Origin: Deferribacter desulfuricans SSM1
Lineage (GTDB): Bacteria; Chrysiogenota; Deferribacteres; Deferribacterales; Deferribacteraceae
Direction of reading: 5' to 3'
Length of the DNA: 64,000 bases
Assembly (NCBI RefSeq): GCF_000010985.1
Contig: NC_013939.1
Location: 2,075,501-2,139,500, forward strand
Program-made: the position numbers and the translations under genes
Shown: piece after piece, positions 1,642 to 17,821 of the stretch
Layout: every line of letters begins with the position of its first letter
Position numbering within the stretch: position 1 is the first letter of the stretch
The notes under the pieces: model-generated
The model's input: the letters and a program-made list of their open reading frames with translations, nothing else
Database searches by the model: none
What the model was told of the DNA's origin: nothing

Positions 1642-2276
1642 TTATTTCTTACCTCCAGATAGATGGCATATAATTCTAATTTGATGTTTTTAAGATCATC
1701 TAAAGATTTTAACTTATATATGGTTTCGTTTGGTAAACCAAGATTGTTTAAAATATAGATATCGAAATGGGTTAAAATCCCCTTATATTTGGATAAAAAC
1801 TCGAAAAATTGGTTGTTACCATCGTCTAATACATAAAGATCTTTTTTTTGCTTTAGACATAGATCTATTTTATTCTTAAAATTTTCAAATGGGGTATTTC
1901 TACCGTGTAATGAGAAAAACTCAATATTTTCATAGGTTTTAAACAGTCTTGCCGTACCAAGCTGCATACTGGAAATACCAGGTATTACCTCAATTATTCT
2001 GTTTTTAAATTTTGTATAAATTATTTTAGCTAAAGAGAAGAAACCAGCATCACCTGATACTACAACACCTACAATTTTATCTTTTTCATTTTCTAAGATA
2101 TTGATGGTATCTTTTATAAGATTATTTAAAATAATATACTTTTTATCTGAGAAAAAATTTTTAAACCTTTCTGCACCGATTAAAAAATCAACCTTTTTAA
2201 CAATCTCAATAGCTCTTAATGTGAGATAGTCTTTGCTACCACAACCAACAGAAATTATATAAATGTTTTTATTCAA
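1638..2276 (-). CDS. cbiE: Cobalt-precorrin-7 C5-methyltransferase (CbiE, no CbiT domain)
   Basis: Tetrapyrrole methylase for C5 methylation late in corrin synthesis. The N-terminal SAM loop is degenerate: SVGCGSKDYLT where most CbiE proteins have a GPGDP-type loop. The downstream blocks VVVSGDAGFFSLA, EVIPGISSMQLGTARL and FFSLHGR are typical of CbiE. At 212 residues it covers CbiE only. Many bacteria carry CbiE fused to the decarboxylating methyltransferase CbiT (as CobL), and no CbiT is seen here or elsewhere in the window. It overlaps cbiD by 8 nt. Confidence 0.88.
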   Translation of the reverse strand: MNKNIYIISVGCGSKDYLTLRAIEIVKKVDFLIGAERFKNFFSDKKYIILNNLIKDTINILENEKDKIVGVVVSGDAGFFSLAKIIYTKFKNRIIEVIPGISSMQLGTARLFKTYENIEFFSLHGRNTPFENFKNKIDLCLKQKKDLYVLDDGNNQFFEFLSKYKGILTHFDIYILNNLGLPNETIYKLKSLDDLKNIKLELYAIYLEVRNK

Positions 2277-3243
2277 GGTATTCTCCTACTTTATTGCATT
2301 TCACATCAAATAGTTTTACCGATACTTTTGTAAAATGAAACCTTTCTTTTATTTTTTTACTTACTAAATAGGCTATTTTATCAAAAGAGTATTTATGACA
2401 TATCTCTTCTATCGTATTAAAATTATAATCAATATTTAAAACTTCTTTTACAAAAAGGTTTGCCTGAGGTGAATTTTTAGAATGTGTATTAAAATACCCC
2501 ATTGCAAGCTTTGCTATTTTCCCTGGATGCCCTGCTACACCTATCTCCTTGATGTGTTTATCTTTAAGATACCTGAATGCTTCATTAAAATAGTTACTCA
2601 CCATAACTGATGGGGATATATTCTCTTTTGATAAGCATTTTTCTCCAATATTTCCAGGAACAAGCCACAATAAATTGTATTTTTGCGCAAGCAAAACATC
2701 GATTTCACACTTAAAACTTTCAATCAAGGCATCAATGCTCATCGGTTTTACAATTCCTGTTGTCCCTATGATGGATATACCACCTATTATTCCAAGCCTT
2801 TCATTAAAGGTTTTTTTTGCAATTTTTCTCCCTTCTGGCACAATTATTGTAACTTCTACCCCTTTATTATTGTTTAAAACAGTTTTTAAGTTTTTTTCTA
2901 TCATCTTTCTTGGAACTGGATTTATTGCAGCCTCACCAACAGGTATCTGTAAACCAGGTTTGGTAACAACACCTACACCTTCTCCACCTTTTATAATAAT
3001 GCGGTTTTCATTTAATATCTTTACAGATGCAAAAATCTCTATCCCATCTGTAACATCAGGGTCATCCCTACTCCATTTTTTTACACCTACAAGATTATTT
3101 TTGAAAATGAGAGGGATTTTTACAATACTATCATCAGGTAAAACTACTTCCACCTCTTTTTCAATATTTCCTGTTAACTTATAGATTAGAGCACCTTTTG
3201 CTGCTGCTGTTGCTGCTGTGCCTGTTGTTATCCCCGTTTTCAT
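2269..3243 (-). CDS. cbiD: Cobalt-precorrin-5B C1-methyltransferase
   Basis: CbiD methylates C1 of cobalt-precorrin-5B; it is found only in the anaerobic pathway. The N-terminus KTGITTGTAATAAAKGAL is the family signature. DDPDVTDGIEI, the GGEGVGVVTKPGL loop and the later GTTGIVKPMS block all match. Length (324 aa) is usual. It overlaps both neighbours by 4-8 nt. Its presence supports the anaerobic route over the oxygen-dependent CobG/CobF route. Confidence 0.95.
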   Translation of the reverse strand: MKTGITTGTAATAAAKGALIYKLTGNIEKEVEVVLPDDSIVKIPLIFKNNLVGVKKWSRDDPDVTDGIEIFASVKILNENRIIIKGGEGVGVVTKPGLQIPVGEAAINPVPRKMIEKNLKTVLNNNKGVEVTIIVPEGRKIAKKTFNERLGIIGGISIIGTTGIVKPMSIDALIESFKCEIDVLLAQKYNLLWLVPGNIGEKCLSKENISPSVMVSNYFNEAFRYLKDKHIKEIGVAGHPGKIAKLAMGYFNTHSKNSPQANLFVKEVLNIDYNFNTIEEICHKYSFDKIAYLVSKKIKERFHFTKVSVKLFDVKCNKVGEYLE

Positions 3244-3695
3244 TTTAACCCTTTTAAGGTTTTTGATATGACTTCTTTTAGCTGTTTTGCAAAAGCTGGC
3301 GATTTCCCTTTTGTTGATACTGATATAGTAATATCATCTTGTGAGATTACTGCTGGCATAAAAAAATCTGATAACTCCTTGTTATCACAAATATTTACAG
3401 GAGTTCCCAGTTTTTTTAAAATTAAAGCTGCTTTTCTATTTAATTCTTTATCATCTGTGCAGATAAAAGCAAAGTAGTATTTTTCTTTTAATAATTCTTC
3501 TTTGAAGTTCGAGTTTATCCAAGTTATTTTATTTGAAGATAAAAGCTTTTTTATATCAGGGTGTAATTCTTTGGAAATTATTGTCACTTCAGGGCTTGAT
3601 TGATTCAAAATTGATAAAAGTTTTCGTTTTGCTACATTTCCTCCGCCGATAAAAAGCAATTTTTTATCAGATAATTTAAAGAGTAAAGGGAACAT
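3240..3695 (-). CDS. Precorrin-2 dehydrogenase (siroheme synthase N-terminal domain type)
   Basis: NAD-dependent oxidation of precorrin-2 to sirohydrochlorin, the substrate for cobalt insertion. The Rossmann loop FIGGGNVAKRKL sits near the N-terminus and the family block VNICDNKELSDFFMPAVI follows near residue 110. I chose the Met at 3695 because GGAG lies 6 nt upstream. The longer open frame (to 3773) would add a hydrophobic stretch that runs antiparallel to cbiB sequence and is not expected in this family. The gene is only the Met8/CysG N-terminal module, so no methylase or CysG C-terminal half is attached. It overlaps cbiB by 20 nt. Confidence 0.85.
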   Translation of the reverse strand: MFPLLFKLSDKKLLFIGGGNVAKRKLLSILNQSSPEVTIISKELHPDIKKLLSSNKITWINSNFKEELLKEKYYFAFICTDDKELNRKAALILKKLGTPVNICDNKELSDFFMPAVISQDDITISVSTKGKSPAFAKQLKEVISKTLKGLK

Positions 3696-4623
3696 TTGGA
3701 CTCCATAACAATTTAAAAATAATAATAAGTAATACAGTAAAAATTGCACTGTAAAGATATAGGAAAATGGCATCTAAAATCTTTTGTTTTGTAAGTAAAT
3801 CGCTACCACCTTCTATCAAAGGCTTATTTACTAACCTTCCAAAATAATATGTATTTCCACCAAGAGTTATGTTTAGTGCTCCAGCAAAAAGGGATATCCC
3901 ACAACCTGCATTTGGACTTGGTAAGGTATTTCTGAATTTTTTGTAAATTTTTAATGCGTTTAATCCATTTTTAAACAAAATTTGAGCAACTGGCAACATA
4001 ACAATTATTTGCAACCTTGCAGGTATAAAATTTAGAATATCATCACTTTTGGCTGAAAACTTACCAAATTCTATATATTTTTCATTTTTATACCCAACCA
4101 TTGCATCCAGTGTGTTTGTAATTCTATAAAAAATAATACCGTATATACCAAAAATTACTCCATAGAAAATTGGTGCAAAAAAAGCGTCATTAAAATTTTC
4201 AGCAACAGATTCAATTGTTGATTTTATAATATCCTGCTCATTCATTTCTTCCACATCTCTACTAACAATTAGTTTTAAATTCTCTTTTGCTAAATTAATG
4301 TCCATCGATAAAGCTTGATAGATTTTCAACGCATGATCTAACATCCCCTTAACAGAGATAGAAGAATACACAATAAATACTTTAAGCGCAAAAAGTAGAT
4401 AATTTGATTTTATAATTTTTAATAACAAAAAAATGACAATAAATATTGTAAAATGTGTTGAGATAAAAAGTAAAAAACCACCTAAAAATTTGTTTTTGAA
4501 GTTGTGAAGAAAGTTTTCATATATTGATATTAATTTACCGATAATTGCCACAGGATGTATTTTATTTGGTAGCTCACCAAAGACTATATCTATCAAAATG
4601 GCTAACACCAATATGTCAGTCAT
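3676..4623 (-). CDS. cbiB: Adenosylcobinamide-phosphate synthase
   Basis: Membrane enzyme that joins aminopropanol (or its phosphate) to adenosylcobyric acid. The opening LIDIVFGELPNKIHPVAIIG is the CbiB start block. IVSRDVEEM-x-E-x-DII, ESVAENFNDAFFAP and SPNAGCGISLFAGAL are conserved CbiB motifs. Several hydrophobic segments span the protein. The Met at 4623 has GGAG 9 nt upstream and is preferred over the longer frame to 4653. It overlaps the cbiP stop by 8 nt. Confidence 0.93.
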   Translation of the reverse strand: MTDILVLAILIDIVFGELPNKIHPVAIIGKLISIYENFLHNFKNKFLGGFLLFISTHFTIFIVIFLLLKIIKSNYLLFALKVFIVYSSISVKGMLDHALKIYQALSMDINLAKENLKLIVSRDVEEMNEQDIIKSTIESVAENFNDAFFAPIFYGVIFGIYGIIFYRITNTLDAMVGYKNEKYIEFGKFSAKSDDILNFIPARLQIIVMLPVAQILFKNGLNALKIYKKFRNTLPSPNAGCGISLFAGALNITLGGNTYYFGRLVNKPLIEGGSDLLTKQKILDAIFLYLYSAIFTVLLIIIFKLLWSPNVPFTL

Positions 4624-6061
4624 TAATGAGATCTCCAAAGATACAATTTTCAATTAAATCTGCTAGTTTGTTTAAGGTTTCTTCTTTTAGCTCATTATAG
4701 GTTTTGTTTATTACTACTTGTTTATCAAAAAGTTTAAAAATAAATTGTAAAAATTCAGAATTTTCAAAAATCCCATGTAAATAAGTGCCAATTATTCTAT
4801 TTTTCTTATTAAAAACGAGTAATCCTTTGTTTTCTAAAATATCTATTACATCTCTATCATTAATGATAGTATTTCCATGATGTATTTCATAGCCTTGAAT
4901 ACTGTTATTTAAGAAACCATTTGCTGGTAAGTATTCACCTCTTTTTAATATCTTCTCTTCTTCCATTTCCGTAATCATATCTATAAAGCCAAAGCCTTCT
5001 ATATCACCTTTATTTTCAACGCCTAAACTATCAATAATTTTTTTGCCAAGCATTTGAAAACCACCACAAATTCCCATAATCCATTTTTTGCCGTATAAAT
5101 TTTTAAGTTGCTCATAAAAACCGTTTTTTAATAAATAATCCATATCAGAGACTGTGTTTTTAGAACCTGGTATAATAATAAAATCATTATTTTCTAAGTT
5201 TTCAAGTTTTGTAACATAAGATACATTGATTTTTTCTATATTTTCAAGAGGTTGAAAGTCTGTAAAATTGGAAATGTGAGGTAGTTTTATTATTCCGATA
5301 TTTAATAATTTTTCACCACTTTTTATGTTTTTCTTTGTAAAAAGATTTTGTGAATCTTCATCTTCTAAATTATGCTCAAAATATGGGATAACTCCTATTA
5401 TAGGTATATCACAAAAATTTTTAAATTCATCGATACCAGGTTTGAGAAGAGACAAATCCCCTCTAAACTTATTGATAATAAACCCTTTTACAAGTTTTTT
5501 GTATTGAGGTTGTATTAAGTCATAAGTACCTTTAAATGCAGCAAACACACCTCCTCTATCAATATCACCAACTATGTAAATTTTGGCATTAGCAATCTCT
5601 GCCATTTTCATATTTACTATATCAAATTTTTGGAGGTTAATTTCTGCTGGAGAGCCTGCTCCTTCTAATACGATGATATCAAATTCCTCTGAAAGTGAAT
5701 AAAATGCTTCTTTTACTATTTTTAAGTTTTCTTCATACATTTTATAATAATCTTTGTAAGAGACTATTTTATAAGGTTTGCCAAGCCTGATTACCTGAGA
5801 TTTCCCACCCCCTGTTGGTTTTAATAAAATGGGGTTCATCCTAACATCTGGTAAAATCTTGCATGCTTCAGCCTGAAGTATCTGAGCTCTACCCATTTCT
5901 AACCCATCGAAAGTTACTCCTGAATTCAGTGCCATATTTTGTGCTTTAAAGGGAGCTACTTTATAACCTTTATTTGCAAGCATCCTGCAGATCCCTGCAG
6001 TTATTATACTTTTACCCACATTGGAGCTTGTGCCCTGAATCATTATGTGTTTAATTTTCAC
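4616..6061 (-). CDS. cbiP: Cobyric acid synthase (glutamine-hydrolysing)
   Basis: Amidates side chains b, d, e and g of adenosylcobyrinic acid a,c-diamide using glutamine and ATP. The N-terminal dethiobiotin-synthetase-like domain begins with the P-loop GTSSNVGKS. PFKAQNMALNSGVT and MNPILLKPTGGGKSQV are CobQ/CbiP blocks. The C-terminal class I amidotransferase domain has its nucleophile Cys in MGICGGFQMLG and the catalytic His in GTYLHGIFEN. Length (481 aa) is normal. It overlaps cobD by 11 nt. Confidence 0.95.
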   Translation of the reverse strand: MKIKHIMIQGTSSNVGKSIITAGICRMLANKGYKVAPFKAQNMALNSGVTFDGLEMGRAQILQAEACKILPDVRMNPILLKPTGGGKSQVIRLGKPYKIVSYKDYYKMYEENLKIVKEAFYSLSEEFDIIVLEGAGSPAEINLQKFDIVNMKMAEIANAKIYIVGDIDRGGVFAAFKGTYDLIQPQYKKLVKGFIINKFRGDLSLLKPGIDEFKNFCDIPIIGVIPYFEHNLEDEDSQNLFTKKNIKSGEKLLNIGIIKLPHISNFTDFQPLENIEKINVSYVTKLENLENNDFIIIPGSKNTVSDMDYLLKNGFYEQLKNLYGKKWIMGICGGFQMLGKKIIDSLGVENKGDIEGFGFIDMITEMEEEKILKRGEYLPANGFLNNSIQGYEIHHGNTIINDRDVIDILENKGLLVFNKKNRIIGTYLHGIFENSEFLQFIFKLFDKQVVINKTYNELKEETLNKLADLIENCIFGDLIND

Positions 6062-7112
6062 ACCCCACTATTTTTTTTAAAATGCTTAAAAAATACCGCA
6101 TAGAATCTAAATCTTTTATTGCAACTCTAATAAATGAATCATCAAGCCCTCTGATATTTTTGCAATCTCTAATTAAAATTTTATTTGATAAAAGTTTAGT
6201 AAAAACCTCTTCACTATTTAGATGATATAATTTTATTAAAACAAAATTTGTAGCGGAGGAAAAAAGCTTGATGTTATTACAATCTTTTAATTCTTCGTAA
6301 AGATAATTCTTAATTTCATTTATTTTTGATGCAATTTTATCTGTTTTTATAGAAAGAAGGTATTTTCCTACTACCTCACTTAAGCTGTTTACCCCCCATT
6401 CGAGACAATGCTTTTCAATTTCTCTTATAATTTCTTTATTAAAAGAGAAGGCATAGCCAATTCTCAGACCTGCAAGTCCGTAAATTTTTGAAAATGACCT
6501 TAAGACAATAATGTTTTTACTTTTTTCAAAAAGTAAACTTTTATTATCGCTATTACTCATAAATGGATGATATGATTCATCAATAACAAACATGCAGTTT
6601 TCAAACCGTTTAGCAATCCTCAATATATCATCTTTTTCTATATAATACCCTGTGGGGTTGTTTGGATTGCAAATGAACACTATATCGAATTTGGAAAAAT
6701 CTAACTCTTGCAAGTTAATAGCAAAATTTCTCTTTTCACTGGCAAAATGAAAATTTATTTGAAGATTATACAGTTTGCAGTATCTTTCATAGTCGATATA
6801 TGTTGGAGCTATTATTAGGGCTTTTTTCCCACTATTAATTAAACATAAATTTTTTATAATTTCACTTGTTCCAGCACCAACAACAAAGTTTTCCATTTCT
6901 TTGTCATATTTATTAGCAAGAGCCTCTTTTAGAATAATAGCATTTGAGGAAGGTAAATTTTTTAAACTTGATATCTGATTTTTAATGAATTCAAATATAT
7001 TTTCATCAACAAAAGGAGAAATATTACTACTTAGATCAATAATTTCATTGGCATTACATCCCAAAAGTTTAGAATAATAGTATATATTGCCGCCATGTGT
7101 GAAACTATCCAA
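6051..7112 (-). CDS. cobD: Threonine-phosphate decarboxylase (PLP enzyme), likely CobD
   Basis: PLP-dependent fold type I enzyme resembling histidinol-phosphate aminotransferase. The start (FTHGGNIYYYSKLLG) has the HGGN element of L-threonine-O-3-phosphate decarboxylases, and IIDLSSNISPF follows. NPNNPTGYY and RSFSKIYGLAGLRIGY contain the cofactor Asn and the Schiff-base Lys. It would make aminopropanol phosphate for the CbiB step. The frame starts with TTG at 7112, with a GGGGTG motif just upstream and no in-frame ATG nearby. A separate HisC (61716-62813) argues that this copy is not the histidine enzyme. Confidence 0.88.
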   Translation of the reverse strand: MDSFTHGGNIYYYSKLLGCNANEIIDLSSNISPFVDENIFEFIKNQISSLKNLPSSNAIILKEALANKYDKEMENFVVGAGTSEIIKNLCLINSGKKALIIAPTYIDYERYCKLYNLQINFHFASEKRNFAINLQELDFSKFDIVFICNPNNPTGYYIEKDDILRIAKRFENCMFVIDESYHPFMSNSDNKSLLFEKSKNIIVLRSFSKIYGLAGLRIGYAFSFNKEIIREIEKHCLEWGVNSLSEVVGKYLLSIKTDKIASKINEIKNYLYEELKDCNNIKLFSSATNFVLIKLYHLNSEEVFTKLLSNKILIRDCKNIRGLDDSFIRVAIKDLDSMRYFLSILKKIVGCEN

Positions 7113-7818
7113 TTAGCACCCCAATAACTAACAAAGCTGTTTCGATTATTTCGCAGGTAGCACCAATGATATCCCCAGTTATTCCACCTACCTTTTTAAG
7201 ATGATAATTTCTTAGTAAAACAAAGGTGATTATAAAAGCTAAATTGAAAAGTATAAAAAATTTTATTCCGCAAAATATAGATAATATAGATATCAAATAA
7301 AAGAGAACTTTGTTGTTTGTATTAGAGTTATCGAAAAAGGCTTTTGCTGTCCCTTTTTCCCTTAAGTAAGGTAATGAATCAATTAAAAATATCATACTAC
7401 CTCTGGAATATGCAAATGGCAGAATGATAGTTAAAGGTTTATTTAAATTGGCGAAGGCTACAAATTTTGATAGCATAACAAGTATTAGTGCTAAAGCCCC
7501 CATTACCCCAATTCTGCTATCTTTCATAATAACAAGCATCTTATCTTTGTCTTTGTGAGAAAAATAGGCATCAAAAGTATCAGCCAGCCCATCAAGATGA
7601 AGCCCCCCGGTGATTATCACCGATGTTAGCAACATAAACAGGGGGGCTAAACTTTGATTTATCAACCCAGCTAAATAAACTAATAAACCTATTAATAAAC
7701 CAACAAGAGGATAAAATAGTAAAGAGCCACTGGCATCAAAAGATTTTTGGTTAATTCTAATTATAGTAAGAAATGACAGTGCGTTTATAAACTTTTCAAA
7801 ATAATCTTTAAATATCAC
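7105..7818 (-). CDS. cobS: Adenosylcobinamide-GDP ribazoletransferase
   Basis: Integral membrane enzyme that joins adenosylcobinamide-GDP with alpha-ribazole (phosphate). GGLHLDGLADTFDAYF followed by MKDSRIGVMGAL is the CobS signature. FYPLVGLLIG near the N-terminus is also typical. Several hydrophobic segments are present. The open frame reaches a TTG at 7851. I favour the GTG at 7818, which gives the common distance to the FLT-x-x-R block and overlaps the cobT stop by 11 nt. The exact start is uncertain. Confidence 0.92.
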   Translation of the reverse strand: MIFKDYFEKFINALSFLTIIRINQKSFDASGSLLFYPLVGLLIGLLVYLAGLINQSLAPLFMLLTSVIITGGLHLDGLADTFDAYFSHKDKDKMLVIMKDSRIGVMGALALILVMLSKFVAFANLNKPLTIILPFAYSRGSMIFLIDSLPYLREKGTAKAFFDNSNTNNKVLFYLISILSIFCGIKFFILFNLAFIITFVLLRNYHLKKVGGITGDIIGATCEIIETALLVIGVLIG

Positions 7819-8881
7819 TTTTACTAACACCTGCTTCTTCAAAAGTAGCAACTTCGGTGATGATTTTTACAGCAGCATCTAATATATGCATTGCCAATAC
7901 TGCTCCAGTCCCTTCACCAAGCCTCATATTAAGTCTTAATAATGGGCTCAATCCTAAATATTCCAGCATATATTTATGCCCTGGTTCTTCTGATATATGC
8001 CCAGCAAACATATATTCTTTCACAGTTGGGCAAAGTTTGTAAGCAATTAATGCACCAGCTGTCGATATTAATCCATCAATAATAACTGGGATTTTATGGT
8101 AGGCTCCAGCAAGAATTACACCTGCAATTGCACCTATTTCGATACCACCAACTTTTGACAAGATATCTATTGCATCATCCGGATTAGGTTTGTGTAAATT
8201 TATCCCAGTTTTAATAACATTTATCTTATTTTGTAATAAATCAGATGTGATACCTGTCCCTTTTCCTGTCATCTCTTCAACACTTTTACCTGTTATGACA
8301 GCTCCAATAGCTGAAGATGGGGTTGTATTTCCTATCCCCATGTCCCCTGTAGCTATTACATCTAACTTTTGAGATTTTATCTCTTCTGATGCAATTTCAA
8401 AACCTGTCATTATGGATTTTTCAGCCTCTTCTCTTGTCATTGCGGGTTCTTTTGTAAAGTTGTTTGTGCGGTATTTTACTTTTTTTACTATGAATTTGTT
8501 AGAACCTTTTAGCTCCTTTTCACTGATGTTACATTTTGAACCCACATCAGCAACGATAGTGCTACAATTGTTTTGCCTTGCCAAAACAGTGATTGTGGCT
8601 ATATCATTTACAAAAGCTTTTATCATTTCACAAGTTACCTGCTGGGGAAAGGCACTCACACCTTCTTCTACCACTCCATGGTCACCAGCCATTACAAAAA
8701 CTGCTCTTTTGTTAACTGATGGCTTTAATGTTTCTTTAATTGCACAGACTTTTTCAGAAATATCATTGAGCATCCCCATTGCTCTATAAGGCATTATCAA
8801 ATTTGAAGTCCTTTCTTTAGCTTTTTCAAAAATTTCTTGGTTTGTTGGTGCTATTTCTTTTAAAATATTTTCTAAACGCAT
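7808..8881 (-). CDS. cobT: Nicotinate-nucleotide-dimethylbenzimidazole phosphoribosyltransferase
   Basis: Activates the lower-ligand base as alpha-ribazole phosphate. VFVMAGDHGVVEEGVSAFPQ is the diagnostic block, TGDMGIGNTTPSSAI follows, and the catalytic Glu lies in RLGEGTGAVLA near the C-terminus. Length (357 aa) is standard. A strong GGAGG lies 4 nt upstream of the ATG. No gene for making the base (bluB or bza) is seen in the window, so the native lower ligand cannot be told from here. Confidence 0.96.
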   Translation of the reverse strand: MRLENILKEIAPTNQEIFEKAKERTSNLIMPYRAMGMLNDISEKVCAIKETLKPSVNKRAVFVMAGDHGVVEEGVSAFPQQVTCEMIKAFVNDIATITVLARQNNCSTIVADVGSKCNISEKELKGSNKFIVKKVKYRTNNFTKEPAMTREEAEKSIMTGFEIASEEIKSQKLDVIATGDMGIGNTTPSSAIGAVITGKSVEEMTGKGTGITSDLLQNKINVIKTGINLHKPNPDDAIDILSKVGGIEIGAIAGVILAGAYHKIPVIIDGLISTAGALIAYKLCPTVKEYMFAGHISEEPGHKYMLEYLGLSPLLRLNMRLGEGTGAVLAMHILDAAVKIITEVATFEEAGVSKSDI

Positions 8882-8893
8882 AAACCCTCCTTT

Positions 8894-9391
8894 TTATTTT
8901 ATTTTTATTGGGATACCCGCGACTAACAAAAAACATTTATCAGCCAAAGCTGCAATTTTTTGATTTAATATGCCTAGTGTATCCACATATTTTCTTGTCA
9001 TGCTATCTAATGGGATTACTCCAAAACCAACTTCATTTGTAATGATTATTATATCAAAGTTTAGACTACTTATTGTCTGCAATAAATAAGTAGTGTATTC
9101 TTCAATATCTTTCTTATAGTGAAAAAGATTTGCAAGCCATGTAGTCATACAATCAATTAGAATAACTTCAAAAACACTACTGTTTTTTAATGCTTTATGG
9201 ATGTCGATGGGCTCTTCTAATGTATGAAAAAGATTACCTCTTTCAGCTTTATGTTTATTGATTCTTTTTACCATTTCTTCATCAATCGGCTCTGCAGTAG
9301 CTAAGTATGCCCGGTTGGTATATTTTAAAGCCAATTTAGAAGCAAAATCAGTTTTACCACTTTTAATTCCACCTGTGATAAGAGTAACCAT
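8894..9391 (-). CDS. cobU: Adenosylcobinamide kinase / adenosylcobinamide-phosphate guanylyltransferase
   Basis: Bifunctional enzyme that phosphorylates cobinamide and then attaches GMP. The P-loop GGIKSGKTDFA is at the very N-terminus. YLATAEPIDEEM-x-x-RI-x-x-HKAERG is the CobU signature containing the guanylylated His. VILIDCMTTWLANL and TNEVGFGVIP follow. At 165 aa it is slightly short but complete. The start overlaps the preceding TIM-barrel gene by 29 nt. Confidence 0.95.
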   Translation of the reverse strand: MVTLITGGIKSGKTDFASKLALKYTNRAYLATAEPIDEEMVKRINKHKAERGNLFHTLEEPIDIHKALKNSSVFEVILIDCMTTWLANLFHYKKDIEEYTTYLLQTISSLNFDIIIITNEVGFGVIPLDSMTRKYVDTLGILNQKIAALADKCFLLVAGIPIKIK

Positions 9392-10070
9392 ATTTATTAA
9401 ATACCTCCAATAAATAATTGAGACTGTTTAATAATTTTGAGAAATCAAAAAGTTCTATTGATATTGTTATATTGTAATCTATAGCAAAGTCGAAAATGTA
9501 TTTAACAAGGTTTATATCTAAATGGCATATTTCCTGATGGTCTTTATCAGCATTAACACCATGTAAATGTATATATTTTATTTTTTCACCATACTTTTTA
9601 ATAATTTCAAAAGGGTTTTCATTATTGAGTAATGAATGGCCGATATCATAACAATATTTGATTTTGGTATTTTTTAGACTGTCAAAAATATTTGAAGACA
9701 CTGTATTTTCTACTAAAACTGATGGGTATAAATGGCAAATTTTTTCAATGGATTCAAAATCATCCCCTTTTGAGTGAAGAAAAAAATATGAAACATTTAA
9801 AGAATTTAGATTTTTGATGAATGAAATCATATACTCTAAATCATCAGTATCATTTAAATTTCTATCGTAAGGAAGATGAGCAGAGTATTTTGTGTCTATT
9901 TTGTTTAGCAGTGTTAATTCATTTTTATCTAACTGGTCATACTCTCTTTTACTTTCAAAAAAAAGCAATTCTATTTCATCAAAAAGATGCTTTAGCTTTA
10001 ATACATTCATTATCCTCGTATCCTGATAAATAAATGAAGTTGTGGCTAATTTTGGTATCTCTTTTTTCAT
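9363..10070 (-). CDS. AP-endonuclease-2/xylose-isomerase-like TIM barrel protein; candidate cobamide remodelling enzyme CbiR
   Basis: The 235-residue protein shows a metal-site pattern of the sugar-isomerase/AP endonuclease 2 barrel. There are His residues near 65 (SAHLPYD) and 99 (FLHS), Glu121 (VENT), Asp142/His145 (YDIGH), His168/His170 (YIHLHG) and Glu206 (ISIEL). CbiR of Akkermansia is a member of this superfamily that removes the nucleotide loop from cobamides so they can be rebuilt. The gene lies between cbiJ and cobU, overlaps cobU by 29 nt and has its own GAGG, so a cobamide role is likely by context. Fold-level evidence is fair. The CbiR assignment is inference; another sugar-phosphate isomerase-like activity is possible. 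Confidence 0.6.
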   Translation of the reverse strand: MKKEIPKLATTSFIYQDTRIMNVLKLKHLFDEIELLFFESKREYDQLDKNELTLLNKIDTKYSAHLPYDRNLNDTDDLEYMISFIKNLNSLNVSYFFLHSKGDDFESIEKICHLYPSVLVENTVSSNIFDSLKNTKIKYCYDIGHSLLNNENPFEIIKKYGEKIKYIHLHGVNADKDHQEICHLDINLVKYIFDFAIDYNITISIELFDFSKLLNSLNYLLEVFNKYGYSYHRWN

Positions 10071-10090: not shown

Positions 10091-10786
10091 CTACCAGTTT
10101 TTAATTACTAGACAAAAAATCCCCATTTCCCTACAGGCTTCTACTTTTTCTTCAAAACCACCAGATTTTCCACTTACTTTTGTTACTAACAAATCTATGT
10201 CAAACTCTTTGATAATAGCATTATTGAAATCTTTAGAGAATGGACCCTGAATTGCTATAATTTTATCATAATCAAATCCAGCCTCTATTACATCTTTTAT
10301 GGATTGCTCAAATGGGAGTATCCTGACATAGGCTTTTTCATTTAAGAAAGAAAAATGTTTTATCATTTTACTACCAATGGTTAGCAAGATTCTTTTAAAA
10401 TCTTTCTCTGTTAGAAATGTGATGGCTTCTTTTATAGAAGTTACATATATCAGCTTTTCGTAAGTAATATTTATCTCACCTTCCCTTATAAAAGATTTGT
10501 ATGTGATATTTAAGGTATTTGCAACATCTTTAGCAATTTGTGTAATCTCTTTTGCAAAAGGGTGAGTAGTATCTACAATTTTATAGATATTGTTTTCTTT
10601 GATAAAATCTTCTAAACTATTTTTGTCAAAGCGTTTTAAAATAATTTTATCTTTACCAAACTTTTTAGAAAACAGTTTATACCCATATTCTGTAGCTACA
10701 GAAATTATGTACTCTTTTTTATCATTTGAGCTTAAATATTTTTCAGTATCAGATGTTCCACCCAATATAAGTATTTTCTTACACAT
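10091..10786 (-). CDS. cbiJ: Cobalt-precorrin-6A reductase
   Basis: NAD(P)H-dependent reduction of cobalt-precorrin-6A. ILILGGTSDTEKYLS at the N-terminus is the CbiJ/CobK start block. VDTTHPFAKEI near residue 70 is strongly conserved, and IAIQGPFSKDFN plus LLVTKVSGKSGGFEEKVEAC match the C-terminal half. Length (231 aa) is normal. It overlaps cbiC by 8 nt, and a 20-nt gap separates it from the TIM-barrel gene. Confidence 0.92.
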   Translation of the reverse strand: MCKKILILGGTSDTEKYLSSNDKKEYIISVATEYGYKLFSKKFGKDKIILKRFDKNSLEDFIKENNIYKIVDTTHPFAKEITQIAKDVANTLNITYKSFIREGEINITYEKLIYVTSIKEAITFLTEKDFKRILLTIGSKMIKHFSFLNEKAYVRILPFEQSIKDVIEAGFDYDKIIAIQGPFSKDFNNAIIKEFDIDLLVTKVSGKSGGFEEKVEACREMGIFCLVIKNW

Positions 10787-11396
10787 TAAAATACACCTTT
10801 ATCAAGGCATTAAAAGCTGCTGCTGCTATACCACTACCACCTTTTGTCCCTTTATTTGTTATAAAAGGGATATCTGTTTTTGTGAGCATCTCCTTTGATT
10901 CTGCAGCTTTTACAAAACCCACGGGGAATCCAAGAACGAATATATTTTTATCAGTATATAAACTATTTAATTCTATAACCTTTAGTAAAGCTGTTGGAGC
11001 ATTACCAATAACAAAGATTATATTATCAAAGTTTTCAAAAGCATGCTCAATAGAAGTCTCAGCTCTGGTTTTCCCTTTAAGTTTTGCAAGCTCTTTAATG
11101 CTTTCATCTGAAATAAAGCAGTGTGTTTTTAGTCCACTAACTTTTAAGTATTTTTCAGTAATTCCAGCTTTTACCATATTTACATCGCATACCACTGCTG
11201 GTTTTGTCTGTATGATTTTTTTAAAGTTTGTAAGCCAGTTATTAGAAAGAATAATCTGTTTAGCAAAATCAAAGTCACCTGATGCATGAATAACCCTTTT
11301 TACTACAATTTTTTCTTCGTCACTAAATTTTGATAAGTCTACATTTTGCTCTATAATATCAAAACTCTCTTTTTCTATTGATAACCCTTTATCCAT
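10779..11396 (-). CDS. cbiC: Cobalt-precorrin-8 methylmutase
   Basis: Moves a methyl group from C11 to C12 to give cobyrinic acid. IEKESFDII and the catalytic HASGDFDFA (His of CobH/CbiC) are present. CDVNMVKAGI, AETSIEHAFEN, VGFVKAAESKE and TNKGTKGGSGIAAAAFNAL complete the family pattern. The open frame extends to 11471. The Met at 11396 has an AGG motif about 6 nt upstream and overlaps cbiL by 8 nt, and it is preferred. The mature length is then about 205 aa, as usual. Confidence 0.94.
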   Translation of the reverse strand: MDKGLSIEKESFDIIEQNVDLSKFSDEEKIVVKRVIHASGDFDFAKQIILSNNWLTNFKKIIQTKPAVVCDVNMVKAGITEKYLKVSGLKTHCFISDESIKELAKLKGKTRAETSIEHAFENFDNIIFVIGNAPTALLKVIELNSLYTDKNIFVLGFPVGFVKAAESKEMLTKTDIPFITNKGTKGGSGIAAAAFNALIKVYFNV

Positions 11397-12096
11397 GTTT
11401 AACCTCACTAAAAAGGATTGCGGTGGATAGATAACCAGCGTCTTTAGGTAAATCATCTGACAATAGGTCAAAAATCCTTTCTTCTGGTAAAGTTGCCCTC
11501 TCTATCAAAAAACCTTTTTTTACTGAATTGCTATTTCTGACAAAAGCTATTAGATCATTTAACCTTTTATGCACTTTCATTATTACCACTGTGGAAAAAT
11601 TACTTAATAAATCATCCAGCTTATCTAAATTATTTGAAAGCTCTACTACGCAAAAAGACTCATCTTTTATCACTAAATTTTCGTTAATTCTATTTGCAGC
11701 AGCAATAAAGGATGGGACACCAGGAATTTTAATTATATCTATATCAAAAAGTTTTAACTTTTTCTCGAGATAATTAAAAGTACTGTATATGGAAAGATCG
11801 CCGATTGTAACATAAGAAACCTTTTTACCTTCAGATAAAAAGTTGTTTATGATTTCAGCTAATTCTTTGTATCTTTTATCAAGTAAATCTTTATCGTTAT
11901 TCATAGGGAAATAATATGTGTAAATTTTTGAGGGAGAAATATGCTTGCTGATAATCTCTTTTGCAAGACTTCTGCCATTTTTATCTGATTGAGGAGTAAC
12001 TACAACATCTGAATCTTTTAAAGTATGTAAAGCTTTTAAAGTAATAAGCTCTGGATCACCAGGCCCTAATCCGATTGCATAAATTAGTTTTTGCAT
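11389..12096 (-). CDS. cbiL: Cobalt-precorrin-2 C20-methyltransferase
   Basis: First corrin-specific methylation, at C20 of cobalt-precorrin-2. The SAM loop IGLGPGDPELITLKA is intact and SDVVVTPQSDKNGRSLA is the CbiL/CobI block. YVTIGDLSIYSTF and IPGVPSFIAAANR follow. The Met at 12096 starts the family-typical KLIYAIG; the frame is open three codons further. It overlaps the upstream uroporphyrinogen methylase by 13 nt. Confidence 0.94.
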   Translation of the reverse strand: MQKLIYAIGLGPGDPELITLKALHTLKDSDVVVTPQSDKNGRSLAKEIISKHISPSKIYTYYFPMNNDKDLLDKRYKELAEIINNFLSEGKKVSYVTIGDLSIYSTFNYLEKKLKLFDIDIIKIPGVPSFIAAANRINENLVIKDESFCVVELSNNLDKLDDLLSNFSTVVIMKVHKRLNDLIAFVRNSNSVKKGFLIERATLPEERIFDLLSDDLPKDAGYLSTAILFSEVKHG

Positions 12097-12845
12097 TTTG
12101 TACACCCTTCACCTTTAATGGTAAAACTATTTGTAAAAAAGTTAGAAGATTTAACCACTTCGCCAATTAGCATTATTGCAGGGAATTTAATCTCAAAATT
12201 AAAGTTAAATAGGTTTTCAACATCTGATACGATTATTTTTTCATCATCAAAATCCAATTTTTCACCAATAGCAACTGGAGTTTTTTCACTTAACCCATTT
12301 TCTAACAATAAATTTAAAATTTTCATAAAATTTTTAACTCCCATATAGACTACTATACTCATGTTTAAATCCACTATTGCTTTCCAGTTGTAAGCTTCAT
12401 TAAGCTCACCATCTTTTTTATGACCTGTTATGAAAATTACGCCAGAAGAGATACCTCTTGCAGTAAGAGCCGTTTCTAATTTTGCAACAAATTGTGATAC
12501 AGTAGTAACTCCAGGAATAATTTCAATTATGGCATCACATCTTCTTGCTACTTCAATCTCTTCAAGGCTTCTAGAATATATAGAAGCATCTCCACCTTTT
12601 AACCTAACTACTGTTTTATCTTCTAAAAGAGCTTTTTCTATCAAGCTATTTATTTCACATTGCGAACAGCTTGGTTTATAAGGAGTTTTACCAACAAATA
12701 CTTTTTCACAATTTACTACATCCAATAAACTGTTATCCACTAACCTGTCGTATAAAATGATGTCTGCTTCTTTAAGCTTGTTTAAACCTTTTAATGTTAT
12801 TAAATCTTTATTTAAGCCTGCACCAATTAGAATAAGTTTTCTCAT
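12084..12845 (-). CDS. cobA: Uroporphyrinogen-III C-methyltransferase with a degenerate SAM loop
   Basis: SUMT converts uroporphyrinogen III to precorrin-2. ADIILYDRLVD, VFVGKTPYKPSCSQCEIN, VVRLKGGDASIYSR and EIIPGVTTVSQF are recognisable SUMT blocks. The N-terminal loop is unusual: IGAGLNKDLIT, where the family has GAGPGDPELLT. It lacks the P-G-D-P run and is one residue shorter. The block after KGGD is also atypical (ASIYSRSLEE rather than PFIFGRGGEE). It remains the only SUMT-like gene in the window. It may be a divergent functional SUMT; activity cannot be judged from sequence. The Met at 12845 is preferred over 12857. Confidence 0.8.
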   Translation of the reverse strand: MRKLILIGAGLNKDLITLKGLNKLKEADIILYDRLVDNSLLDVVNCEKVFVGKTPYKPSCSQCEINSLIEKALLEDKTVVRLKGGDASIYSRSLEEIEVARRCDAIIEIIPGVTTVSQFVAKLETALTARGISSGVIFITGHKKDGELNEAYNWKAIVDLNMSIVVYMGVKNFMKILNLLLENGLSEKTPVAIGEKLDFDDEKIIVSDVENLFNFNFEIKFPAIMLIGEVVKSSNFFTNSFTIKGEGCTKCKN

Positions 12846-13636
12846 TTTAAGCTCCATTTGTAAAAAATGTTATTTAAAAAAAGGATGTTATCTATGGTTT
12901 TTGTGTTTGCTCTTGCAAAATCAAGTTCATTTACTCTGATAAAAACAGTCTTCATATTTTTAAAAAGAGGCCTTTTATCTGGTGGGGTTGGGGTTTTGTT
13001 CATAGGACCAACTTGGTAAATATATATATCAGGATGTAGCGAAATGGCCTTTTCGATGGAAAATTTAACAAGTTTTTTATTTATATCTATCGCGTTTATC
13101 CCACCAGCCTTTTTTATGATATCATTTATTATGCTGTTTTTCCCTGCTACTATATAGGGTGTTTGTGTGATTTCATATATTACTTTAGGCTTTTTATTTA
13201 GCTTTTTTAACTGGGATAGTTTATTTTTTAATTCATTTATTAAGTTATTACCAGTTTTAGATACATTCATCATAGAAGCTATCTTTTTTATTTGCTCAAA
13301 TATTTCTTTGGTAGTTTTTGGATCATATTTATATGTTTTTATGTGAAATTTATCCAAACTGTTTGGTAAAAAACGATTATTTGAATATATAATCAAATCT
13401 GGATTTAAAGAAAGCATTAATTCTAAATTTGGTTTTAAATGAGAACCCACTTTAACGGTGCTATCAAAACCTTTTATATGCTTTGTGATACCTACAACTT
13501 TATTGTTTAATCCTAATTTTAAAAAAATATCAGCGCAGGCTGGAGACAATAAAATTACCCTTTCATAAGCTAAACTGCTATTAGTCAATAAAATAAAAAC
13601 CATTAATACATTTAAAATCCACTTCAAAAACTTCAT
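12842..13636 (-). CDS. Periplasmic substrate-binding protein of a B12/siderophore-type ABC importer (BtuF-like)
   Basis: Class III periplasmic binding protein of 264 aa. Residues 1-23 form a signal peptide (KK, hydrophobic core, ending SSLA). RVILLSPACADIFLKLGL and NPDLIIYSN are typical of BtuF/FepB-type proteins, and a long central helix region (about 100-150) links two lobes. It is the distal gene of a btuC-btuD-btuF set inside the cobalamin operon, so a corrinoid or cobalt-chelate substrate is likely. Iron chelates cannot be excluded. A GGAG lies 7 nt before the ATG, so the 56-nt overlap with the ATPase gene appears real. Confidence 0.82.
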   Translation of the reverse strand: MKFLKWILNVLMVFILLTNSSLAYERVILLSPACADIFLKLGLNNKVVGITKHIKGFDSTVKVGSHLKPNLELMLSLNPDLIIYSNNRFLPNSLDKFHIKTYKYDPKTTKEIFEQIKKIASMMNVSKTGNNLINELKNKLSQLKKLNKKPKVIYEITQTPYIVAGKNSIINDIIKKAGGINAIDINKKLVKFSIEKAISLHPDIYIYQVGPMNKTPTPPDKRPLFKNMKTVFIRVNELDFARANTKTIDNILFLNNIFYKWSLK

Positions 13637-14312
13637 TCAAAATCTCCTTGTTTAAATCGTTAATATTTACTTTGCAAAGGATTTCCCCTTTTTTTAAAAA
13701 GACTATCTCATCCACTAACCCTTTTAAGATATTGATGTCATGTGATGATAGTATTACGCTTTTTTTCTCATCTGCCAAAATCTCTTTAACTGTCTTTGTA
13801 TGCTTTACATCGAGCATGGAAAAGGGCTCATCCAACAAGATGATGTCAGTATCCTGATTTAAAACTCTTGCAAGCATTACTCGCTTTTTCTCTCCACCAG
13901 AAAGCTCATTAAATTTTCTATTTTTCAAATGATAAATATCCAGTTTTTTTAGCCACAACTCAGTCTTCTCAAGATCGTAATTATCAAATTTGCCTAAGGT
14001 TTTGGGATATCTTCCAAATAAAACAGTATCAAAAACATTGAACCCAAAAATAATTTCAGAAAACTGGGGTAAATAAGAGATTAAATTTGCAAGCTCAATA
14101 GGTTTATAGTTAGAAACTTGTTTGTTTAAGATTTTTAGTTCACCTGTAAAATTTTTATTTACTCCACTGATGATATCAAGCAGTGTACTTTTACCAGCAC
14201 CATTTTCACCTAATAGAGCTATTTTTTCCCTTTTTGATACAGTTAGACTATCAATTTTTAATGTAAAATCTCCAACTTTGGCATTCAAATTTTTAATATC
14301 AATAATATTCAT
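13581..14312 (-). CDS. ABC importer ATPase, BtuD/FecE type
   Basis: Cytoplasmic ATPase of the same importer. Walker A GENGAGKSTLLD is near residue 36, and the Q-loop is in SYLPQ. The signature LSGGEKKRVMLAR is near residue 137, Walker B is IILLDEPFSMLD, and the switch His is in LSSHD. Length (243 aa) is normal for the family. It directly abuts the permease gene and overlaps the binding-protein gene by 56 nt, which suggests coupled translation. Confidence 0.9.
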   Translation of the reverse strand: MNIIDIKNLNAKVGDFTLKIDSLTVSKREKIALLGENGAGKSTLLDIISGVNKNFTGELKILNKQVSNYKPIELANLISYLPQFSEIIFGFNVFDTVLFGRYPKTLGKFDNYDLEKTELWLKKLDIYHLKNRKFNELSGGEKKRVMLARVLNQDTDIILLDEPFSMLDVKHTKTVKEILADEKKSVILSSHDINILKGLVDEIVFLKKGEILCKVNINDLNKEILNEVFEVDFKCINGFYFID

Positions 14313-15254
14313 TTACCCATACCAGATATTTTTTAATCTATATTTCATTAAAAATAGGAAGAAAATCCCACCAAAAAATGATGTAGCTACACCCACAGGC
14401 AGTTCTGCACCAGAAGGGATGATTATTCTACAAACTGTATCAGATAACAAAAGGAAATTAGCTCCAAATAGCGTAGAATATATTAAGTGGGTTTTCATAT
14501 CGGGTTTAAAAAGCCCCCTAACAATATGTGGGATAATGAGACCTACAAAACCAATTATACCACTAAAACTCACAGCAAAAGCAATAAGTATGGAAACAAT
14601 TATAAAAAGTTTTTTTCTGGTAATAGCCACATCAACGCCAAGTGAGTTGGCAGTTTTATAGTCGTAGGCTAAGATATTTAGTTTAAAACTATTTTTAAAA
14701 AGAATAAGAAAGCTTGAAATTAGCACCAGAAAAAGAATAAAAACCTTTAGGTAGGATACATCATAAAATCCACCCATTAGCCAATAGATAATTGAGCCTA
14801 AAGATTCATCAAAGTAATATTTCAAAAAGCTTATAATCGCCGAGCATATTATATTTAAAATAATCCCAGCCAGTATAATGGTGATATAGTGAAATGATTT
14901 ATCAATATTGGTAAGCGTAAATACAATATATAAGCCTATTAATGCAAACAGGATGGCAATCATAGGGGTAAATGATAAATTTAATCCTAAACCGATACTT
15001 ATTGATGCACCAAGCGCTGCTGAGGCAGAAATGCCGGTGGTAAATCCATCTGCCAAAGGGTTTCTTAATATTAGCTGTAAAATAGATCCACTAAGTGAAA
15101 GTATCCCTCCTATAATAAAAGCTGTCAAAACCCTTGGTAATCTTACATTTAACAATAACTGTATTGTCAAATTATTAAGACTTACTGCACCATTTGTCAG
15201 AGAAAAAGAAAAAATTATGATTGTAATTATCAAAGCTATTACAAATCTATTCAT
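14313..15254 (-). CDS. ABC importer permease, BtuC/FecCD family
   Basis: Polytopic membrane protein of 313 aa with about nine or ten hydrophobic segments. LNVRLPRVLTAFIIGGILSLSG is split across a conserved FecCD N-terminal block; ILRNPLADGFTTGISASAALGA and GLIIPHIVR are family hallmarks, the latter next to the ATPase coupling region. DTVCRIIIPSGAELPVGVATSFFGG closes the domain. Within the cobalamin operon a corrinoid substrate is the best guess; FecCD permeases for iron chelates look much the same. Confidence 0.88.
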   Translation of the reverse strand: MNRFVIALIITIIIFSFSLTNGAVSLNNLTIQLLLNVRLPRVLTAFIIGGILSLSGSILQLILRNPLADGFTTGISASAALGASISIGLGLNLSFTPMIAILFALIGLYIVFTLTNIDKSFHYITIILAGIILNIICSAIISFLKYYFDESLGSIIYWLMGGFYDVSYLKVFILFLVLISSFLILFKNSFKLNILAYDYKTANSLGVDVAITRKKLFIIVSILIAFAVSFSGIIGFVGLIIPHIVRGLFKPDMKTHLIYSTLFGANFLLLSDTVCRIIIPSGAELPVGVATSFFGGIFFLFLMKYRLKNIWYG

Positions 15255-16225
15255 TTAAGATTAATCCCACCATCCTTAGCAGCGTCTTTTAAATGCTCTA
15301 AAAAAATCTTTGCAAAACTGTTGTTAGAACCAAGTCCTTCAATTACAGGGATAACTTCTATCCCTTCTTTTTTCAAAATATTTTTCCAAGAATCAGGTTC
15401 ATCCCCTGCCATATCGTTACTTGCATGATCCCCAGCTACAACCATAAACGGTTTTAAAACCACTTTTTTGATATTTTGCTTTTTTAATTTTAAAATCACA
15501 TCTCCCAAACTAGGATAACCTTCAACTGTACCTATAAAAATTTTTACATCCTTATATTGACGGTTGAACTCTTTTTCTGTTTCAATATATGCACCTGTGG
15601 AATAAAATTCATTTCCATGCCCCATATAGACTAATGCTGCATTATGCTTTCTTGCTAACTCAACATCATTTCTTAATGCTTTTACTACCTCTTTTATATC
15701 TTCATGGTAATCGTATTTATCACCATAAGTTCCAAGTGCTGGACGACCAAGCACTATTTTGTGAAAAGGCTTCCATCTTTTTTTAATTGTCTGAATAGAG
15801 TTTAGGCCTCTTGCATATTCTAAAAGGTCAGAGAACTCTTCACCATGGTAGATATGTGTTGGCTGGATAACAATGTTTTTATACCCTTCGTCAGACAAAT
15901 CACCTAATGTAGCAACAACCCCTTTCACATTTAAAATCTCTTTTGGCACACCTTTTTTTATCCACTCTTCAGGGTGTTTATTTCTTTTTTGCCATATTTT
16001 TCTTATAATATTTGAAGTAAAAGTTACTCTAACTTCGGTATTAGGGAATTCATTTTTAACCATATTGATAATATTAATAATAGATTTTAGTCCTGAAGGG
16101 TAAGTAGTCCCAAAGCTTGCAATTACAATTGCGTTTTTTTTTGTTTTGTTCTTTTCCATTTTAGCCATACAAACTCCTGTCATTAAGAATACTGCAACAA
16201 AAAGAAAAATAATAACTTTTTTCAT
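15251..16225 (-). CDS. cbiK: Sirohydrochlorin cobaltochelatase with an N-terminal signal peptide (CbiK, periplasmic-type)
   Basis: CbiK inserts Co2+ into sirohydrochlorin. SFGTTYPSG at about residue 38, the metal-site His203 in VYMGHGNEF and His267 in FMVVAGDHASNDMAGDEPDSW are the family landmarks. Residues 1-22 (KK, then a hydrophobic run ending VCMA) look like a cleavable Sec signal, absent from cytoplasmic CbiK of enteric bacteria but present in the periplasmic Desulfovibrio CbiK. The gene sits between cbiA and a BtuCDF-like transporter. An export signal on the only chelatase in the cluster is puzzling, because its substrate is made in the cytoplasm. An internal start after the signal (Met23 codon) is an alternative. 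Confidence 0.9.
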   Translation of the reverse strand: MKKVIIFLFVAVFLMTGVCMAKMEKNKTKKNAIVIASFGTTYPSGLKSIINIINMVKNEFPNTEVRVTFTSNIIRKIWQKRNKHPEEWIKKGVPKEILNVKGVVATLGDLSDEGYKNIVIQPTHIYHGEEFSDLLEYARGLNSIQTIKKRWKPFHKIVLGRPALGTYGDKYDYHEDIKEVVKALRNDVELARKHNAALVYMGHGNEFYSTGAYIETEKEFNRQYKDVKIFIGTVEGYPSLGDVILKLKKQNIKKVVLKPFMVVAGDHASNDMAGDEPDSWKNILKKEGIEVIPVIEGLGSNNSFAKIFLEHLKDAAKDGGINLK

Positions 16226-17563
16226 CTAACATCCTCCTCTTATTATATTTTTTATTATGCAGTTGTCGCTTAAAAAATGAAAATGTGTATAACTTGCGAG
16301 AGTTTTAAATTTCACAAATCCATCATAATTAACACTATTGTCAGTAATTTTTTTAATTTTAAATACATAATCCTCATTACACTCTTTTATTTTAGAATAA
16401 TGAAATTCATGACCAATGAAATTTTCACCCTCTTCAAATAAGTCTGTATGTTTTAATGAGGTAATATCTACATAACCTAAGGCCTGTCTTTTCTCAGTCA
16501 TTTCAACATTTACATCAAACACTTTACACATTTCAAAAAACTCATTTTTTACTTTTATCCCATTTGATAAAAACATCATTCCGCCACACTCTGCAAGGAT
16601 AGGTACCCCTTTTTTGGATGCTTCTTTTATATAATTTTTAAGTTTATTGTTTTTTGAAAGTTGTTCAGCATAAAGCTCAGGATATCCCCCGCCAAAATAT
16701 ATAAAGTCTGGATTCTCAGGTAACTCATCTTTTAAAGGGGAGAAATTGATAACTTGGAATCCATTTTCTTCTAGAAAATCTATATTATCCTGATAATAAA
16801 AATTAAATGCTTCATCAAAGGCAATATAAGCTTTTTTATCTTTAGTTTTTGTCTTATTCTCAATAGCAACTTCATCATAAATGTAGTCGATATTTTCAAA
16901 AATTTTTTCAACATCAACATAATTTAAAAAAGTATTAACAATATTATCATAAAGATTTTCTTCTACTTCAAAAGCTGTATAAATACCTAAATGTCTTGAA
17001 AGCAAAACTAAATCTTTCATTTTAGGAATAGCACCAAAAACTTTTAAATCAGTATGATATTCTATTGCGTTTATTAGCATTTTTTCATGTTTTTTAGAGC
17101 CAACATTATTTAAAACAACTCCTGCCACATTGATATTTCCACCTAAACTAATCAAACCTTTTATCCTTGAAGCAATTGTAAAAGATGTTGAGCTAGCATC
17201 CAATATGAATAAGACTGGAAGGTTGAGCAGTTTTGCCACTTCGTAGGTGCTACCAGCAAAAGTTTTATAATCTATTCCATCATAAAAGCCCATCACCCCT
17301 TCAATTATTGCCATATCATAGCTATTAAGCTTTAATAAAAAATTATGTTTTAATTTTTCTTTATTTATCAGTACAGTATCTAAGTTATAAGCGTTATTTC
17401 CAGTAGCATATTTTAAATGGAGTGTATCAATATAATCGGGGCCACACTTGAAAGGTAAAACAGATTTTTGATTTAAAGTAAAATATCTTGATAAAAAAAT
17501 TGTAAAAAGGCTTTTCCCTGAGCCGCTTTTATCAGATGCTATTAAAACTGCTTTTTTAACCAC
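16226..17563 (-). CDS. cbiA: Cobyrinic acid a,c-diamide synthase
   Basis: First gene of the operon; it amidates side chains a and c of cobyrinic acid using ATP and glutamine. The P-loop ASDKSGSGKS is at the N-terminus, and KCGPDYIDTLHL and EGVMGFYDG follow. The glutamine amidotransferase domain has its Cys in LAECGGMMFL and a distal His in SYTHFHF. I start it at the GTG at 17563, which has GGAGAG 5 nt upstream. The longer frame to 17602 would be translated from within the riboswitch expression platform. The start region is probably controlled by the upstream RNA. Confidence 0.94.
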   Translation of the reverse strand: MVKKAVLIASDKSGSGKSLFTIFLSRYFTLNQKSVLPFKCGPDYIDTLHLKYATGNNAYNLDTVLINKEKLKHNFLLKLNSYDMAIIEGVMGFYDGIDYKTFAGSTYEVAKLLNLPVLFILDASSTSFTIASRIKGLISLGGNINVAGVVLNNVGSKKHEKMLINAIEYHTDLKVFGAIPKMKDLVLLSRHLGIYTAFEVEENLYDNIVNTFLNYVDVEKIFENIDYIYDEVAIENKTKTKDKKAYIAFDEAFNFYYQDNIDFLEENGFQVINFSPLKDELPENPDFIYFGGGYPELYAEQLSKNNKLKNYIKEASKKGVPILAECGGMMFLSNGIKVKNEFFEMCKVFDVNVEMTEKRQALGYVDITSLKHTDLFEEGENFIGHEFHYSKIKECNEDYVFKIKKITDNSVNYDGFVKFKTLASYTHFHFLSDNCIIKNIIRGGC

Positions 17564-17568
17564 TTGCA

Positions 17569-17624
17569 CTCTCCAGCCTCGTTTTTGAGACCGGAGAGCC
17601 AAATTTCTCTAACGCACTCCGGTC
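17569..17624 (-). promoter_or_regulatory. Expression platform: hairpin and anti-Shine-Dalgarno switch of the cobalamin riboswitch
   Basis: A perfect 8-bp stem, GACCGGAG (17624-17617) with CTCCGGTC (17596-17589), follows the riboswitch. Its 3' arm overlaps CTCTCC (17598-17593), which is exactly complementary to the cbiA ribosome-binding sequence GGAGAG (17574-17569). The two pairings are mutually exclusive, so the RNA can expose or mask the start. There is no U-tract after the hairpin, which argues against a transcription terminator. The direction of the switch is inferred from known cobalamin riboswitches. Confidence 0.6.
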
Positions 17625-17661
17625 CCAATACCCGGGGACACTTACACCCATAATTTGGGTG

Positions 17662-17815: not shown

Positions 17816-17821
17816 AATAAA

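Follow-up and report, generated by a model that had tools for sequence, protein, structure and literature searches.

The closest described system is the CbiR enzyme of Akkermansia muciniphila (Amuc_1679; Mok et al. 2020, PMC7733943). The activity expected of this family is the hydrolysis of cobamides to cobinamide phosphate, with sensitivity to oxygen and inhibition by EDTA. With AdoCbl as substrate, a KM of 194 uM and a kcat of 6.5 per min were reported for the Akkermansia enzyme (Mok et al. 2020, PMC7733943), and what CbiR releases is taken up by CobU as its substrate (Mok et al. 2020, PMC7733943; PMC8749415). Mok et al. also found CbiR in 26 A. muciniphila strains having the de novo pathway, and 80% of 282 CbiR homologs adjoin cobamide biosynthesis genes; how CbiR spares the cell's own cobamide is described there as unclear. 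CbiZ likewise starts cobamide remodelling but it differs from CbiR, being an amidohydrolase that cuts another bond and has a dissimilar sequence (Mok et al. 2020, PMC7733943). The last assembly step is a dephosphorylation by CobC, the alpha-ribazole/cobamide-5'-phosphate phosphatase (PMC8749415). CobC is a histidine phosphatase, i.e., a phosphomonoesterase of a family unrelated to CbiR, although its place beside cobS/cbiB in some related operons is similar to that of cbiR.

The window analysed is a 64-kb stretch (64,000 nucleotides) of the genome of Deferribacter desulfuricans; the genome searched consists of two contigs totalling 2,542,933 bases, of which 2,234,389 are in the larger one. A complete anaerobic B12 pathway is attributed to this species in a 2026 study of the genus (PMC13186404). 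Sequence models confirm the open reading frame at 9363-10070 as a member of the CbiR family, and it is very probable that the gene encodes this metal-dependent phosphodiesterase of cobamide remodelling as part of an operon for de novo cobamide synthesis controlled by a B12 riboswitch. The features are, in the order of the operon:

17648..17845 (-), cobalamin riboswitch aptamer upstream of the operon; Rfam RF00174, 96.6 bits (gathering 31.5)
16226..17602 (-), cbiA (cobyrinate a,c-diamide synthase), first gene of the operon; NCBIfam NF002204, 422 bits, over cut-off
15251..16225 (-), cbiK cobalt chelatase; Pfam CbiK, 269.7 bits
14313..15254 (-), FecCD/BtuC-like permease; Pfam FecCD, best NCBIfam match a BtuC model, below cut-off
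13581..14312 (-), ABC transporter ATPase; Pfam ABC_tran
12842..13636 (-), periplasmic binding protein; Pfam Peripla_BP_2, NCBIfam IsdE and BtuF models all below cut-off
12084..12857 (-), cobA-type uroporphyrinogen-III methyltransferase; TIGR01469, 194.4 (cut-off 185)
11389..12105 (-), cbiL; TIGR01467, 210.3 (cut-off 163)
10779..11471 (-), cbiC; Pfam CbiC
10091..10786 (-), cbiJ; Pfam CbiJ
9363..10070 (-), cbiR, 235 aa, ATG start; NF041277 135.8 bits, AlphaFold2 pLDDT 96.1, tree
8894..9391 (-), cobU; NF004469, 174.4 (cut-off 161)
7808..8881 (-), cobT; TIGR03160, 409, over cut-off
7105..7851 (-), cobS; TIGR00317, 124.4 (cut-off 110)
6051..7112 (-), cobD-like threonine-phosphate decarboxylase/HisC-like aminotransferase; TIGR01140, 246.6, below the cut-off of 290.6, named by context
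4616..6061 (-), cbiP; Pfam GATase_3 and CbiA
3676..4653 (-), cbiB; Pfam CobD_Cbib
3240..3773 (-), precorrin-2 dehydrogenase-like (SirC/CysG N-terminal); TIGR01470, 107.5, over cut-off
2269..3243 (-), cbiD; TIGR00312, 318, over cut-off
1638..2276 (-), cbiE; TIGR02467, 109.9, over cut-off
859..1641 (-), cbiF; TIGR01465, 327, over cut-off
114..914 (-), cbiG; Pfam CbiG_N and CbiG_C
1..121 (-), 5' end of cbiH, the rest lying beyond the window (L053:10390-11121); TIGR01466, 269.6 (cut-off 246)

cbiR is the tenth gene of this packed operon of about 22 genes, all on one strand; between cbiA and cbiG no two neighbours are more than 20 bp apart. It starts 20 bp past cbiJ and overlaps cobU by 29 bp: the start codon of cobU is at 9391, within cbiR, and a GGAGG motif is found shortly upstream. 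Both flanking genes have the same orientation as cbiR and are confirmed by Pfam. The position between cbiJ and cobU, as well as the de novo context with its near-complete gene set (cbiA to cbiH), had been proposed in a sequence-only reading of the window and both hold. No cbiT was seen within the operon, cbiE standing alone, and no cobC. None of the importer genes has an NCBIfam match above cut-off that would assign it to cobamides, which is counted against the present reading. A promoter and terminator scan gave results at chance level.

The cbiR product reaches 135.8 bits on NF041277 (the NCBIfam CbiR equivalog, cut-off 105). The next NCBIfam family is IolE with 27.4 bits for a cut-off of 290; no sugar isomerase is closer, the CbiR model being ahead by about 108 bits, and no other sugar isomerase/epimerase model of NCBIfam was matched at E 0.1. 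Pfam AP_endonuc_2 is found with 28.7 bits, slightly below the gathering score of 31.1, and the histidine phosphatase models (PF00300/TIGR03162) are absent among the Pfam and NCBIfam matches. It must be noted that CbiRs from Desulfobacteria score up to 287 on the CbiR model; the lower value of the Deferribacter protein is counted against the assignment. The latter protein and the Akkermansia enzyme, compared here through NF041277, have in common (i) the curated family and the fold class; (ii) the His/Asp/Glu metal pattern; (iii) the linkage to cobU/cobT/cobS/cbiB. Unlike the Akkermansia gene, the Deferribacter copy belongs to an uninterrupted operon for de novo synthesis that is preceded by a B12 riboswitch.

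The AlphaFold2 model of the protein is a TIM barrel with a mean pLDDT of 96.1. H65, H99, E121, D142, H145, H168, H178 and E206 are invariant in 19/19 rows of Deferribacterota/Chrysiogenota type, and these eight metal-ligand residues (H65-E206) are also invariant in 35/35 rows of alignment A3. H99 is nearly invariant in alignment A2 (36 rows), of which one row (L133), unresolved around H99, was left out of A3. Within the DH motif, D177 is replaced by His in some rows. The AP-endonuclease-2-type barrel with its metal-site pattern, noted from the letters of the window, is confirmed. The tree (69 rows) places all CbiR rows together with 97/91 support, apart from the endonuclease IV (L026) and another barrel (L027) of the Deferribacter genome, its outgroup consisting of three rows only, all long-branched, for which the tool gave a long-branch caution. 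In this tree the Deferribacter CbiR groups with those of genomes G008 and G001. No match was obtained by tblastn of the Deferribacter CbiR against a plasmid collection.

L027 (G000:C1:1768625-1769119) is a further AP-endonuclease-2 barrel of the genome. It has 56.8 bits on the CbiR model, i.e., below cut-off (counted against the assignment), and corresponds to no named NCBIfam family.

For CbiR, a location next to genes of cobamide synthesis is usual, and it is ordinary for anaerobic bacteria. Among 59 relatives, CbiR was found in 22 and CbiD (the de novo marker) in 30: 18 genomes have both, 12 have CbiD only and four have CbiR only (G015, G021, G022 and G048), the genomes of G021 and G022 being 87% and 73% complete. 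A search for the same gene in related cob operons gave cob linkage in 21 relative loci. cbiR is placed between transporter genes and cobUTS in three salvage-type relatives (G015, G021 and G022), and the same is seen in G002 at a separate salvage locus away from its CbiD. Riboswitch aptamers are present in 7/14 relative loci read, that of L047 preceding cbiK and not cbiR; nine further loci gave one aptamer, in a cobC locus (L166). In a tool-drawn sample of 196 Desulfobacteria genomes, CbiR is above cut-off in 150 and CobS in 167, and CbiR occurs in 150/167 genomes with CobS vs. 0/29 without it. cbiR and cobS are on one contig in 90 of the 129 Desulfobacteria with both positions listed, 83 of them within 12 kb. 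The same linkage was found on a smaller sample by Mok et al. 2020 (PMC7733943). Twelve stretches, picked mainly for long open frames, contained no convincing CbiR fusion, cbiR overlapping or abutting cobS or cbiB.

CbiR is thus a regular gene of anaerobic cobamide producers and not a speciality of salvagers. The sequence-only reading considered it as an enzyme known from a salvager, and for this reason remarkable beside a synthesis pathway; the de novo strains of Mok et al. 2020 (PMC7733943) contradict this view, as do the 18 of 22 CbiR-bearing relatives that have CbiD. That the organism both makes and remodels cobamides is likely and may fairly be supposed, but it is not new, being known for the family (Mok et al. 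2020, PMC7733943). That earlier interpretation is therefore partly supported.

The alternation of cbiR with cobC is less ordinary than the presence of CbiR in the operon and is the part worth testing. PF00300 (histidine phosphatase) had no match in the Deferribacter genome, the same search being positive in 13/14 control genomes; the genome has thus no recognisable CobC. Among the 59 relatives, full-length PF00300 (about 150 model positions or more) is present in 2/22 genomes with CbiR vs. 10/12 with CbiD but not CbiR (p = 2.8e-5, kinship ignored). cobC was located by a cobC HMM, the placements agreeing with the coordinates of the earlier PF00300 matches in relatives. This HMM found no cobC in 81 cbiR loci (3.2-20.9 kb, 7 places present twice). 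On the other hand, cobC is beside cobS in operons without cbiR: (i) in family f7, between cobS and cbiB, where cbiR was not found; (ii) in the Desulfobacteria G096, G210 and G242, and near cobS in G125. The loci beyond the seeds of the HMM that have cobC beside cobS are L101, L102 and L164-L166, and L167 has it near cobS. Among the matches listed for Desulfobacteria, a cobC no more than 20 kb from cobS is present in 0/150 genomes with CbiR vs. 4/17 with CobS but not CbiR (p = 7.6e-5, kinship ignored). In other words, the gene near cobS/cbiB in relatives and Desulfobacteria may be either cbiR or cobC, none of the 81 cbiR loci having the two together, and the Deferribacter cbiR seems located where some relatives carry cobC.

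In 13 of these 17 Desulfobacteria loci (L184-L196) the stretch read contains no cbiR and no cobC, and a different phosphatase must therefore act in these genomes. The data raise the question of what carries out the CobC reaction where, as in many genomes, the cobS locus is without cobC.

Three explanations other than remodelling have to be weighed. A sugar isomerase/epimerase or an endonuclease merely located in the operon would have the same fold: by Foldseek and VIA-align, the top PDB matches of the model are AP-endonuclease-2-type barrels, namely epimerases, xylose isomerases and, a little further down, endonuclease IV. The best sequence match of the CbiR profile is MJ1311, titled epimerase-like; the regions of H65, H99, E121, D142 and H145 align with endonuclease IV and the later ones also with MJ1311. 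Since CbiR and sugar isomerases cannot be told apart by this comparison of folds, the family assignment comes from sequence models and context, and these leave such an enzyme hardly credible. The protein shares fold and metal ligands with endonuclease IV and sugar isomerases (AP_endonuc_2 superfamily) but does not match their curated models, IolE being far below its cut-off; endonuclease IV is encoded by a separate gene (L026); and the linkage to cob genes holds in 21 relative loci, like the association with CobS in 196 Desulfobacteria. CbiR could also be a housekeeping or editing hydrolase that mainly returns the cell's own cobamides with a wrong lower ligand, rather than imported ones, to cobinamide phosphate. 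Its co-expression with synthesis genes behind one riboswitch and its near-constancy among CobS-bearing Desulfobacteria are in agreement with this, and the supply of the lower ligand is uncertain: the best BluB match in the genome has 33.5 bits for a cut-off of 150, and the single ThiC, beside thiE in a thiamine cluster, is above two ThiC cut-offs and below that of BzaB, no second, BzaB/F-like ThiC being found in the genome. Nevertheless, the Akkermansia enzyme does not discriminate between lower ligands (Mok et al. 2020, PMC7733943) and cbiR adjoins transporters in salvage loci, which makes such an editing role quite improbable.

A third possibility is that CbiR stands in for CobC: besides or instead of remodelling, it would remove the 5'-phosphate from the cobamide 5'-phosphate made by CobS, or would replace CobC beside CobS in the assembly complex. 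Its absence from the histidine phosphatases means that any such role would be that of an unrelated enzyme doing the job of CobC. Metal barrels of this superfamily, e.g., endonuclease IV, also remove phosphomonoesters. PF00300 is missing in Deferribacter and rare in CbiR-bearing relatives, cobC is absent from the cbiR loci while present beside cobS elsewhere, and in the loci read cbiR is often directly after cobS or cbiB, which is the position of cobC in other operons. Moreover, MAGs of Chlorobium antarcticum are without cobC (PMC8620254), and CbiR is abundant in the phylum Chlorobi, as in some others (Mok et al. 2020, PMC7733943). Against this, an unlinked CobC-like match is present, among the matches listed, in 96/150 Desulfobacteria with CbiR, much like the 12/17 without it; in 13/17 genomes with CobS but not CbiR, both genes are missing from the cobS locus read; and the operons with cobC come from few clades. 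The CobC step is, besides, probably within reach of general phosphatases. The enzyme of Mok et al. 2020 (PMC7733943) cleaves the phosphoribosyl bond, phosphatase action not being reported in the available parts of that paper. Replacement of CobC by CbiR is consequently a minority hypothesis and an unlikely one; equally doubtful is a wider reading by which CbiR, across many anaerobes, would be no optional remodelling gene but a constant companion of CobS, in the place of CobC within the nucleotide-loop operon, supplying or obviating the last dephosphorylation, for which Deferribacter has no recognisable gene. If CbiR performed both remodelling and the CobC step, a gap of the B12 pathway would close. 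No proposal of a cbiR/cobC exchange was found in the open-access literature searched, where CbiR and CobC appear together only in Mok et al. 2020 (PMC7733943), CobC as an E. coli gene in the available parts.

Remodelling is the best-supported function of the Deferribacter CbiR, the reaction of which should, by analogy with the Akkermansia enzyme, be the cleavage of the phosphoribosyl bond. At low cellular B12, the riboswitch would permit expression of the whole operon. CbiR would then act on the nucleotide loop of cobamides, imported or own, and hydrolyse the phosphate-ribose bond; the products would be an alpha-riboside and adenosylcobinamide phosphate. CobU, whose gene follows and overlaps cbiR, would guanylate the cobinamide phosphate, CobT would activate the base preferred by the cell and CobS would join the base part to the corrin part. 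Scavenged and newly made corrin rings would thus feed one assembly line, with entry at cobinamide phosphate. A de novo producer faces the problem of sparing its own cobamide more acutely, and how it avoids destroying this cofactor becomes a testable question. Riboswitch control, which would confine CbiR activity to B12-poor cells, is a possible answer.

The cobamide operon (L035) of G008, a genome of another family, has the same gene order as that of Deferribacter, and for 16/17 proteins it is closer to it by identity than is the operon (L032) of G001, which is of the same genus as the window. This looks like a transfer of the whole operon (1-17602 in Deferribacter) between lineages. G015, a genus-mate of G008, has a salvage-type locus only.

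Concerning the users of cobamides, two proteins with B12-binding domains are present in the genome; the window contains one, adjacent to MeaB. At 33774-35729, a MeaB GTPase, an enoyl-CoA hydratase-like protein and a free-standing B12-binding domain protein (134 aa) are found in a row, adjoined by an AMP-binding enzyme; this region is probably a methylmalonyl-CoA mutase cluster.
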